In this document: positions 377 through 62,336 of the stretch, piece by piece
Layout: each line of letters begins with the position of its first letter
Position numbering within the stretch: position 1 is the stretch's first letter
DNA from: Salisediminibacterium halotolerans
GTDB taxonomy: Bacteria > Bacillota > Bacilli > Bacillales > Salisediminibacteriaceae
Reading direction: 5' to 3'
Assembly (NCBI RefSeq): GCF_003814815.1
Contig: NZ_RKQQ01000004.1
Span: forward strand, 221,872-285,871
Length of the DNA: 64,000 nt
Position numbers and translations under genes: made by a program
Notes under the pieces: model-generated
Database searches by the model: none
What the model saw: the letters and a program-made list of their open reading frames with translations, nothing else
What the model was told of the DNA's origin: nothing

Positions 377-413
377 CATCGCCCCTCGATCCTGTACAAC
401 AGGGGGAGGGGCG
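377..413 (+). terminator. Intrinsic terminator hairpin, upstream duplicate
   Basis: A GC-rich hairpin directly after the aldehyde dehydrogenase stop. Its stem is CGCCCCTC pairing with GAGGGGCG. It has no U-tract, because repeat copy 1 starts within four bases. The same 37 bp recurs at 839-875 with two differences. Confidence 0.8.
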
Positions 414-416
414 ATT

Positions 417-838
417 CAGACTGTAGACAAACTATATTTTTATGTCAGCCATGAATCCACTACCCTCCGCTTGCCCCGGGCAAGGACTCAGCTAGGATTC
501 GGCGGCCTCAGGCCGCCGAATCCGGATCTTCGTCTCTTGCTTTCCCGGAGGCGTCGGAGGAGTGGATGCATGGCTTCTTTTTTATCAATACACTCGCTTC
601 AAGAAAGAGGATGACCCAGCATCCCGGCTTTTTCCTGCGGGATAGCGAGATAGACGAGACCCTGCAGGGCATAAGCCCGAAGCGGCTCGGCGCTCGCCCG
701 CGGACTAGTAAGACACGGCGAAGTCTTTTTAAGCCGATGTCGCAGTGATACCTTCAGGTGAAAGAAGCCGGACGATGCGTCGTCATCCGTTTCTTTTAAT
801 ATGACATCTATCGATGTCATGACTTTGTCAACACTCTG
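417..838 (+). mobile_element. Terminator-flanked palindromic repeat, copy 1 (422 bp, MITE-like)
   Basis: This copy begins CAGACTGTAGACAAACT and ends in sequence whose reverse complement is CAGAGTGTTGACAAAGT, giving a 14/17 terminal inverted repeat. It contains a long imperfect palindrome at about 447-575, centred on a perfect 13-bp arm pair (496-508 and 510-522). A second imperfect palindrome fills the right half, where the stretch near 610-640 pairs with that near 765-795. It is about 85-95 percent identical by eye to copies at 12007, 40066, 56834 and 61934. It is flanked by duplicated terminator hairpins. No believable protein is encoded. It lies between convergent genes. Confidence 0.9.
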
Positions 839-880
839 CATCGCCCTTCGATCCTGTACAACAGGGGTAGGGGCGCTTTT
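839..880. terminator. Intrinsic terminator, downstream duplicate
   Basis: The second copy of the 377-413 hairpin, placed immediately after the element's right terminus. This copy keeps a short T-run (CTTTTG) and serves the convergent pair formed by the aldehyde dehydrogenase and the acetyltransferase. Confidence 0.75.
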
Positions 881-883
881 GAT

Positions 884-2083
884 TTAAAAAAAGTCATACA
901 TAAACGGCTCTCTGTTATCGATCAGCTGGTCAAGCACCTTCACCGCATCCGGATCTTCACTTTTCAGCACCTCTTCTTCGAAAAGCGTTTGTGCTGACAG
1001 CTTCCCTAAGCAAACGGCCGTCAGCGAACCGATTTCAACCCGGACACCCCTTTTAGGCGGATGCTGACAAGCGGTGTTTTCTTTCGGTTTGTCCTCAAAG
1101 TGTTCAATCGCTAGCGAGCCGCGCTGATTTTTTAAAATAAAAATGCCGCGGTTCCATGTACAGACAGGATCATCCACATGGAGAATAAGCGGTTTCTTCA
1201 AAGCATCGGTATTGACAGGAACGCTTTCAAAAAACTTTTTCAAATCGACAATCCGGCTCATGAAATATGAGCGGATTTCTCGTTTTACGCCCGGGTCGGG
1301 CAAGATAAACGGCAGCACGCCGTCGGGATTCGTTTCAATTACAGCTTGGTCAATCATTGAATCATGGTTGCTCACAAATGTGCTCAGTCCCCGGCGAGCA
1401 TCCGCATCAAGCCAGATCCATTCTTTAATCGTCATCGTCCGTTCGGCTGTCGAATAAATCATATAACCGCGCGCCTCTCCGTCTTGGTTGCGATAAACGG
1501 CAACGGTTCCCGTTTTTCGGCGGAAAACATGGCGGTTCCACCATTGATGATCTCGAGCGACTATACCGTTATATCGGCGGGCCCACTCGTCATAAATCGG
1601 TCCAAGAACCTCAGCGTCTTGGTCGATTCGGCGGACCCGGCCGGAAAAGCGGCTTCGTTCAGGGAGCTGATCTTTTTTGAGCGTGATCGTCTGTTTATCA
1701 GCATACATTTCCCAGCCGAACTTGCGGTAAAACGGAACCGAAAAAGGGTAAAGCAAAGCTAAGTGTTGGCCGTTTTCGCGCATCGTTTTTAGGCTGTGCT
1801 CCAAAAGCGAGCGGACGATACCGCCCCGGCGGTGTTCCGGCCATGTAGCCACACCGGAAATGCCGCCGGCAGGGATTCGAGTTCCGGCAAGAAAAAGATC
1901 AAAAGATAACAGCGTCAATTTCGACATCAGCGCACCGTTTTCTTCCGCTACCCACGTTTCTTCCGGGCGCATTTGCTGTTTGCGCTGTTCGCGCTCTTCG
2001 TCTGTCAGCGTTGCTTGAAAGGCGAAGAGCGATAAATCAATACTCTCATCACGTTCGTCTTCGCGCAGCTGCCGAATGTTCAT
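884..2083 (-). CDS. Eis-like GNAT N-acetyltransferase with SCP2-type C-terminus
   Basis: A 399-residue protein of the enhanced-intracellular-survival (Eis) family. An N-terminal GNAT domain contains GVATWPEHRRGGIVRSLLEHSL, the acetyl-CoA pyrophosphate-binding loop of the V/I-x-x-x-x-R-x-x-G-x-G/A type. The central region repeats a GNAT fold and the last 100 residues resemble an SCP2/sterol-carrier domain. Such enzymes acetylate amino groups of amines or aminoglycosides, but the substrate here is unknown. The start is an ATG behind AAAGGAGAAG. The gene overlaps the photolyase stop by 4 bp, so the two are translationally coupled. Confidence 0.87.
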   Translation of the reverse strand: MNIRQLREDERDESIDLSLFAFQATLTDEEREQRKQQMRPEETWVAEENGALMSKLTLLSFDLFLAGTRIPAGGISGVATWPEHRRGGIVRSLLEHSLKTMRENGQHLALLYPFSVPFYRKFGWEMYADKQTITLKKDQLPERSRFSGRVRRIDQDAEVLGPIYDEWARRYNGIVARDHQWWNRHVFRRKTGTVAVYRNQDGEARGYMIYSTAERTMTIKEWIWLDADARRGLSTFVSNHDSMIDQAVIETNPDGVLPFILPDPGVKREIRSYFMSRIVDLKKFFESVPVNTDALKKPLILHVDDPVCTWNRGIFILKNQRGSLAIEHFEDKPKENTACQHPPKRGVRVEIGSLTAVCLGKLSAQTLFEEEVLKSEDPDAVKVLDQLIDNREPFMYDFF

Positions 2084-61262: not shown

Positions 61263-61443
61263 AAACGCTAGATGCTATTGGTTAAGCAATGTCAAGATTG
61301 ACAGGCTTTCAGCTTGTTCGGTATACTGTTTATAAAGGTTCTAAAGAGAGAATGCATACTTTGTGATATTGTAAATACTTGTATAGATGACAGATGACGC
61401 ATACATTCGCTTGCCATTATCAGCATCAAAGGGGTGAAACAAC

Positions 61444-61881
61444 ATGGAAAACCATCAATTTCAAGAGGCGTTAGAATCGCTTAAAAACACAAAAGTCCGT
61501 ATGACCCCGCAAAGACACGCAATTTTGGAATTTTTATTCAGTGCTAAACAGCATCCGACTGCTGATGAAATCTATAAAGCATTGGAAAGTAAATTCCCGA
61601 ATATGAGTGTGGCAACGGTTTATAACAACTTACGGGTTTTTAAAGAAGTCGGGCTCGTGCGAGAGCTGACTTACGGAGATTCTTCCAGCCGTTTTGACAG
61701 CAACACATCAGACCACTACCACGTCATTTGTCAAGACTGCGGAAAAATTGTCGACTTTCACTATCCCGGACTCGATGAAGTAGAAACCCTCGCCGAACAC
61801 GTGACGGGTTTTAACGTGAAGAACCACCGGATGGAGATTTACGGAACATGTCCGGATTGTGCAAAAGGACAAGCGCATTAA
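61444..61881 (+). CDS. perR: Peroxide-responsive repressor PerR
   Basis: A 145-residue Fur-family repressor very close to B. subtilis PerR: MTPQRHAILEFLFSAKQHPTADEIYKALESKFPNMSVATVYNNLRVFKEVGLVRELTYGDSSSRFD. CQDC and CPDC bind the structural zinc; SRFDSNTSDHYH and the following histidines form the Fe/Mn site where peroxide oxidises His. The Asp of SRFD is kept, as expected for PerR rather than Fur. I see no clear Per box in the 180 bases upstream. The ATG follows AAAGGGGTGAAACAAC. Confidence 0.96.
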   Translation: MENHQFQEALESLKNTKVRMTPQRHAILEFLFSAKQHPTADEIYKALESKFPNMSVATVYNNLRVFKEVGLVRELTYGDSSSRFDSNTSDHYHVICQDCGKIVDFHYPGLDEVETLAEHVTGFNVKNHRMEIYGTCPDCAKGQAH

Positions 61882-61905
61882 TCGATCGTTTCGAGGATGT
61901 AAAAA

Positions 61906-61933
61906 CGGCTTCCAGCCTTAAAGCTGGAAGCCG
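61906..61933 (+). terminator. perR terminator hairpin, upstream duplicate
   Basis: Stem CGGCTTCCAGC / GCTGGAAGCCG without U-tract; repeat copy 5 follows directly. Confidence 0.9.
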
Positions 61934-62301
61934 CAGATTGTAGACAAAATATTATTTTGACGCAAGCCACGCAACCACTACCCTCCGCTTGCCCCGGGCA
62001 AGGACTCAGCTAGTATTCGGCGGTCTAAGACCGCCGAATCCGGATCTTCGTCTCTTGCTTTCCCGGAGGCGTCGGAGGAGTGGATGCGTGGCTTCCTTTA
62101 TTATGAAAACACTTGATTCAAAGAAGGAGGATGACCCAGCATCCCGGCTTTCTCCTGCGGGATAGCGAGACAGACGAGACCCTGCAGGGCATCAGGCCGA
62201 AGCGGCTCGACGCTCGCCCGCGGAAAGAAGCCGGACGATGCGTCATCATCCGTTCCTTTTAATAGGACATCGATCGATGTCATGACTTTGTCAATACTCT
62301 A
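61934..62301 (+). mobile_element. Terminator-flanked palindromic repeat, copy 5 (368 bp, internal deletion)
   Basis: It begins CAGATTGTAGACAAAAT and ends ...TTTGTCAATACTCTA. Compared with copies 1-4 it lacks about 55 bp between CCCGCGG and AAAGAAGCCGG (joint near 62224), which removes one strand of the inner right-hand stem. It has the GGTCT-A-AGACC core like copy 2. The flanking 28-bp hairpins differ only at one loop base. Confidence 0.92.
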
Positions 62302-62336
62302 CGGCTTCCAGCCATAAAGCTGGAAGCCGTTTTTGT
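62302..62336. terminator. perR terminator hairpin, downstream duplicate
   Basis: The same CGGCTTCCAGC / GCTGGAAGCCG hairpin, followed by TTTTTG. It also serves the convergent ygzB. Confidence 0.9.

Follow-up and report, generated by a model that had tools for sequence, protein, structure and literature searches.

Whole terminator-like hairpins are duplicated around IS1182-family insertion sequences and around miniature elements that share their ends

A stretch of 64,000 nt from Salisediminibacterium halotolerans (contig NZ_RKQQ01000004.1, positions 221,872-285,871; hereafter, the window) carries six copies of a short element, every one of which is bracketed by two near-identical terminator-like hairpins of 24-40 bp, the hairpin sequence being unlike at each of the six sites. 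These elements are miniature inverted-repeat transposable elements (MITEs): they are short, lack a transposase gene, share their ends with an autonomous insertion sequence (IS) of the IS1182 family found outside the window in the same genome, and are flanked by a target duplication. The IS itself lies within a hairpin duplicate, duplication of the whole hairpin is a property of the IS clade, related sites free of the IS carry one hairpin, and the duplicated segment is centred on the palindrome. Very probably, the MITEs are moved by the IS transposase, which would join the element ends to the two symmetric 5' feet of a hairpin extruded as a cruciform, with gap repair duplicating the hairpin.

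Hairpins and elements in the window

A preliminary description of the window had placed six copies between near-identical hairpins of locus-specific sequence, and this arrangement was confirmed at all six coordinate pairs (Table 1). The hairpin length that it gave, 24-37 bp, was of the right order, although the range proved slightly narrow; its statement that the element lies exactly between the hairpins holds for adjacency but not to the letter, the spacing being 0-4 nt in nearly all cases. Its view of the hairpins as terminators of the adjacent genes agrees with their terminator-like form and with their position, 2-27 nt away from the stop codon of the neighbouring open reading frame (ORF). 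A BLAST search of the window with three of the copies (E ≤1e-4) returned the same six and no seventh. Four of them measure 419-421 bp and one 366 bp, while the sixth is a short, degenerate copy, and no ORF of at least 150 amino acids, the smallest size looked at, was found in any. Read inwards, the MITE ends are AGACTGTAGACAAA and AGAGTGT(T/C)GACAAA, and five of the six copies show 0-2 differences per end from the pattern AGASTGTNGACAAA.

Two other identities were rejected. Rfam covariance models gave no match in the window at the gathering threshold, which speaks against a known RNA family, and transport of the hairpin by the element itself is at odds with hairpins that are local and differ between sites. 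As a separate observation, a long imperfect inverted repeat, with 68-74% identity to its own reverse strand, makes up the left half of the MITE (447-576, 12037-12167, 43098-43232 and 61964-62094), and the short copies are composed mainly of this half.

Empty insertion sites carry one hairpin

The preliminary description had interpreted the repeats as a target-site duplication directed at hairpins whose sequence varies, and had pointed to element-free orthologous loci as the place where a single hairpin should be seen. Such loci were available for five plasmid insertion sites of transposase relatives, at which related IS-free records carry the hairpin once. Each empty record was scored against predicted sites with one copy (160 bases), two copies or no copy of the hairpin. 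In this order, the scores were 160/117/117 for the IncC plasmid site, 160/115/115 for the Listeria pLM5578 site, 154/104/101 for the Enterococcus faecalis site (134/104/81 with a second record), 143/111/105 for the E. faecium pELF site and 126/85/81 for the Providencia site, so that two of the five match the one-copy prediction at 160 of 160 bases. The presence of one hairpin in the empty sites indicates that insertion makes the duplicate. Two hairpins without an element, the arrangement that would have spoken for a pre-existing pair, were seen in none of the records examined.

For the window, the orthologous gaps of two same-genus genomes were read by eye, with sites named by the left coordinates of the preliminary description. 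At sites 377, 11980, 43051 and 56810, both genomes have one strong hairpin of terminator-like form and lack the element, as does one of the two at site 40042; for site 61906, the adjacent ORF was found in neither of the stretches fetched from these relatives. A search of the two genomes with the element gave one weak match of 48 bases in one and none in the other.

The duplication is centred on a palindrome

Among the near-full-length relatives of the IS described below, 61 carry a duplicate, and 59 of them allowed the empty target to be reconstructed. In 56 of these 59 sites, duplication and palindrome have the same centre, and in 57 the two centres are at most 1 nt apart. For the MITEs of this genome, 31 of 75 sites (those with an exact repeat of at least 14 abutting both ends) were used, and centring is exact in 16 and within 1.5 nt in all 31. 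The duplication was defined by direct repetition and a stem was then required, exact centring not being imposed; the failing loci with recognised ends had no repeat score above 10. The first base of the duplication is A in 54 of 61 cases and the last is T in 54 of 61, and by composition nothing stands out except A close to the foot and, higher in the stem, G/C, no motif search having been made. A length that varies between 16 and 42 bp, taken together with centring on the palindrome, suggests that the target is measured by structure.

Survey of the genome

The elements are not confined to the window. In a first search, 40 of 174 candidate places were scored, and adding the neighbouring copies in the fetched DNA brought the set to 44; the copy at 61906 is absent from this set and present in the wider one described next. 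Flank-repeat scores of at least 13 were obtained for 39 of the 44, and a control of mismatched left and right flanks (n=1,892) had a mean of 6.6, a 99th percentile of 12 and a maximum of 17, the five lowest passing scores (13-17) falling within the tail of this control. Two of the five misses have duplicates by eye (the 43052 copy and the second L002 copy), and three are real: the first copy in L008, which is truncated, the copy in L024, where only the left hairpin is present, and the L036 copy, which lies between two different hairpins.

The wider set took 100 of 186 end matches and covers about 248 kb of the 2.84-Mb genome, in regions selected for the presence of the element or of its ends. 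Scanning the genome for the pattern of the two ends gave 93 + 93 matches, as against 4 + 10 for the reversed pattern. A hairpin foot abuts 84 of 100 exact ends, 30 of 42 ends with one mismatch and 25 of 39 with two, and such contact fell to 7-12 of 142 in control windows moved 60-200 bp outwards. The preliminary description had asked how the flanks of all genomic copies look, and had held that copies without a duplicate would tell against a hairpin target: among 75 elements paired by their terminal repeats, 69 reach a flank-repeat score of at least 13, but three are real exceptions (C2:370219-370581, C1:440145-440783 and C1:541049-541411, the last being L036, whose two ends adjoin two different hairpins); the other three failures were read as mispaired ends. 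Mismatched pairs passed in 41 of 5,550 cases, with a maximum of 32 that is believed to come from doubly paired ends. Leaving aside the IS, the passing elements are 244-697 bp long. An A- or T-rich tail is present on at least one side in 26 of the 31 MITE sites against a background of 12%, which supports the terminator character of the targets. No bias of MITE orientation relative to the tail was found, a T-rich right side occurring 22 times and an A-rich left side 21 times (n=43).

An autonomous IS1182-family partner

The genome contains a single PF05598 match (E ≤0.001), an ORF for a transposase of 480 amino acids with the domains PF05598, PF13751 and PF01609. The protein matches the IS1182 model NF033551 (E 6e-135; 450.8 bits, cut-off 270), the only one of its nine NCBIfam matches that lies above its own cut-off; no IS30 model is among the nine. 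The ORF is bounded by AGAGTGTCGACAAA and AGACTGTAGACAAA, which form terminal inverted repeats of 14-15 bp, and an exact 27-bp hairpin repeat stands on both sides of the IS. The left and right ends differ in the same way in the IS and in the MITEs. Residues D154, D281 and E408, which we take to be the DDE triad, are invariant in 63 of 63 aligned relatives (multi-piece and stop-containing copies among the 72 were left out), and no solved structure was matched by sequence at E ≤0.001.

A chimera at C1:487336-487871 (L076) joins the MITE left half to the IS end upstream of the transposase gene; it retains the first transposase codons (88% identity over residues 1-33) and is flanked by imperfect hairpin repeats. 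On the strength of the shared ends, their common left/right difference and this chimera, the MITEs are likely to be mobilised in trans by the IS1182-family transposase of the same genome. A GC-rich stretch, presumably of a type widespread in Bacilli, was also seen between the transposase gene and the IS end in two loci, at about 1930-2060 in L042 and about 1810-1930 in L121 (CGCGAGACTCCCGCGG... / ...CTTTCCGCGGGCGG...).

Hairpin duplication in the IS clade

Relatives of the transposase are present in 40 of 299 genomes of the host's order (E ≤1e-60) and on Listeria, Enterococcus and IncC plasmids. Loci were drawn from the same family, the same order and plasmids, each genome or plasmid group contributing one locus or a few. 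Of 97 loci classed, 72 are near full length (more than 400 query residues, at least 35% identity), 19 fall below 35% identity and six are shorter; the 72 are the loci fetched, a subset of all matches. Whole-hairpin duplicates of 16-42 bp flank 61 of the 72, with 61 different repeat strings, in hosts that include Sutcliffiella, Peribacillus, Listeria, Enterococcus, Lactococcus, Bacillus pumilus, Staphylococcus arlettae, Aminobacter, Providencia and Klebsiella. Two IS copies at different places of one genome (L234 and L257 of G103) have duplications of 18 and 34 bp that contain the same 18-bp core; because these duplications differ around one core, the joining point may lie at varying distances from the loop of similar palindromes.

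The 19 loci below 35% identity lack these ends. Some of the distant relatives (L053 and L062; L055, L058-L060 and L075) have other ends and possible direct repeats of 9 bp or 4 bp, and the mode of duplication may differ between branches. A further genome of the same family (G014, with 47 matches) contains many copies of a related IS1182 transposase that are broken or incomplete.

Table 1. Positions of the elements and flanking hairpins in the window and of the autonomous IS
Feature	Position	Strand	Remarks
Left terminator-like hairpin copy	377..416	+	repeat 377/839: 40 bp, 93% identity; stop codon of neighbouring gene 372-374
420-bp MITE	418..837	+	ends AGACTGTAGACAAA / AGAGTGTTGACAAA
Right terminator-like hairpin copy	839..878	+	
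Left terminator-like hairpin copy	11982..12005	+	repeat 11982/12428: 24 bp, exact (100% identity)
419-bp MITE	12008..12426	+	
Right terminator-like hairpin copy	12428..12451	+	
Left terminator-like hairpin copy	40041..40066	+	repeat 40041/40488: 26 bp, exact (100% identity)
421-bp MITE	40067..40487	+	
Right terminator-like hairpin copy	40488..40513	+	
Left terminator-like hairpin copy	43052..43082	+	repeat 43052/43260: 31-33 bp, read by eye (copy missed by the automatic boundary finder); between convergent ORFs
Short degenerate copy, MITE left half	43083..43259	-	ends not clearly recognisable
Right terminator-like hairpin copy	43260..43292	+	
Terminator-like hairpin copy	56810..56834	-	repeat 56810/57255: 25 bp, 100% identity; distal to the 57307-58632 gene
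419-bp MITE	56835..57253	-	
Terminator-like hairpin copy	57255..57279	-	adjoins the 57307-58632 gene
Left terminator-like hairpin copy	61905..61933	+	repeat 61905/62301: 29 bp, 1 mismatch; 3' of the ORF that ends at 61881
366-bp MITE	61935..62300	+	internal deletion relative to the 420-bp form
Right terminator-like hairpin copy	62301..62329	+	
Autonomous IS1182-family IS	C2:366166-367901		outside the window; NF033551, terminal repeats

Discussion

In the mechanism proposed here, a terminator hairpin would be extruded as a cruciform, and the transposase would join the element ends to its two symmetric 5' sides. These sides would face each other across the four-way junction whatever the length of the stem, and gap filling after joining would yield a complete hairpin at both flanks of the element. 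The centring of the duplication on the palindrome fits joining at symmetric positions of such a structure. Where a T-rich tail is present, the hairpin copy beyond the element would keep it, so that transcription of the upstream gene would read through the element and still be terminated, and terminators would in this way be low-cost landing sites. Most DDE transposases cut their target with a fixed stagger, and the DDE transpososome joins two ends to the target strands at a fixed short spacing. A wider generalisation, towards which we lean only slightly, is that this whole clade within the IS1182 family consists of cruciform-reading DDE transposases for which the stem and not the protein sets the length of the duplication, that terminators, as the most common of the strong hairpins, serve them as sequence-independent sites in which a functional terminator is retained, and that MITEs have thereby multiplied to dozens.

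The same palindromes might be read by the transposase as linear, dyad-symmetric duplex without extrusion, an account that we hold to be unlikely while allowing it some weight: symmetry alone does not require extrusion, and the A/T-rich edges could be readable as sequence. On a linear palindrome of 16-42 bp, the joining points would come to lie at varying distances and helical phases, and one rigid transpososome could hardly span the resulting separations of about 1.5-4 helical turns, whereas across a four-way junction both 5' feet are close for any stem length; the composition of the targets, as given above and read without a motif search, likewise provides little for a sequence reader beyond the A near the foot and the G/C higher up. 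That the target is a single-stranded hairpin, formed at the replication fork or behind RNA polymerase (in an R-loop), appears more doubtful still. Terminators do fold during transcription, and hairpins on the lagging strand are targeted by other elements, but a single-stranded hairpin offers one 5' foot only, whereas duplication of the full stem would need both strands to be joined, and the MITEs show no preferred orientation to the tail.

Two further explanations concern the origin of the second hairpin. Deletion of the stem-loop upon insertion, with replacement by the element as in IS1272, would be suggested by the same transposase family and the same kind of target (available text of PMC4923244 and PMC5678879), but filled sites have two hairpins, empty sites have one and a duplicate is found in most of the relatives, by which replacement is contradicted for this clade and becomes very improbable. 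Tandem terminators that were present before the element arrived, or a second hairpin produced by gene conversion, deserve practically no credence: tandem terminators exist in bacteria generally, but the empty plasmid sites have one hairpin, by which a pre-existing pair is rejected, the orthologous gaps examined have one strong terminator-like hairpin, and the repeat strings of the relatives are all different.

Several observations weigh against joining at the feet of a cruciform by the IS transposase. The duplicate is absent in 11 of the 72 relatives: four have one hairpin, three adjoin two different hairpins (L121, ends 1726 and 3476; L122, 1842 and 3416; L213, 1386 and 2954), one has no hairpin and in the other three no ends were recognised. 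Elements between two different hairpins, C1:541049-541411 included, would be explained by recombination between two copies or by a deletion next to the element as it transposed. A second record for the Listeria site (L123 against L137) scored 79/78/57 and does not tell one copy from two, because the alignment stops at the hairpin. An exact empty site was found for none of the elements of this species, the two same-genus genomes being too diverged for the window sites. The palindrome usually extends 0-5 nt past the duplication on both sides (range -2 to 15), which implies that the joining point often lies within the A/T-rich base and not at the outermost pair, and the length of the duplication correlates only moderately with the span of the palindrome (r 0.56). 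The likeness between MITEs and IS is confined to the termini, so that cross-mobilisation leans on the ends and the chimera, and palindromes as short as these would have to be extruded as cruciforms in vivo. Cruciform joining would help to explain why such elements gather at terminators, and may open a route to mapping those hairpins that take effect as DNA structures in vivo.

Comparison with known systems

The preliminary description considered long target duplications and the targeting of terminator stems unusual for a DNA transposon, which holds true, although there are precedents in print, namely IS1630 and palindrome-targeting members of the IS1182 family. IS1630 of Mycoplasma fermentans, of the IS30 family, targets and duplicates inverted repeats according to the title of its description (Calcutt, Lavrrar and Wise 1999), and duplications of 16, 23, 25 and 26 bp at four of seven copies are given in the available part of PMC3317919. 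Duplication of an inverted-repeat target is thus common to IS1630 and the IS1182 clade, but IS1630 has an IS30-type transposase, whereas here an IS1182-type enzyme is combined with a MITE swarm and exact empty sites. The targets of IS1630 are reportedly rho-independent terminators. Repetitive extragenic palindromic (REP) elements form a sequence family. IS elements that target REP palindromes are known and resemble the present case in their palindromic extragenic targets (PMC1525189, as far as its available text goes). The targets described here, in contrast, are alike in shape and not in sequence.

Within the IS1182 family, the staphylococcal IS1272 and TnSha1 have hairpin targets that are often terminators and lack a sequence consensus (PMC4923244 and PMC5678879, in the portions available). 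They share the family of transposase and the kind of target with the elements described here; compared by its description, IS1272 deletes the stem-loop or replaces it, and neither IS1272 nor TnSha1 duplicates the target, whereas here the whole stem-loop is duplicated. In the accessible text of Wan et al. 2017 (PMC5678879), duplication of a whole hairpin is drawn as a possible pathway b, beside the deletion pathway favoured for IS1272, and the cruciform joining and gap filling proposed above would correspond to that pathway b. According to the same partly available source, some IS1182 members were reported by Siguier et al., without detailed data, to have palindromic targets, and a paper of 2025 (PMC12056078, likewise in part) describes members that recognise a sequence or a structure and that may or may not duplicate the target. 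ISEfa7 falls under the same family model, and a copy annotated as ISEfa7 (L126) has the ends described here together with a hairpin duplicate. In the literature covered, in part as partial texts, the hypothetical pathway in PMC5678879 was the only mention found of an IS1182 element duplicating a whole hairpin, ISfinder and most subscription journals lying outside the search and the absence being to that extent unproven.

Targeting that chooses hairpins is already known from other elements and is not new in kind. What is new, as far as our searches show, is whole-hairpin duplication across an IS1182 clade with exact empty sites, centring on the palindrome and a swarm of MITEs that dwell in terminators. 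With a small and widespread transposase of this type, the cruciform model put forward for IS1272 and the case of IS1630 become directly testable.

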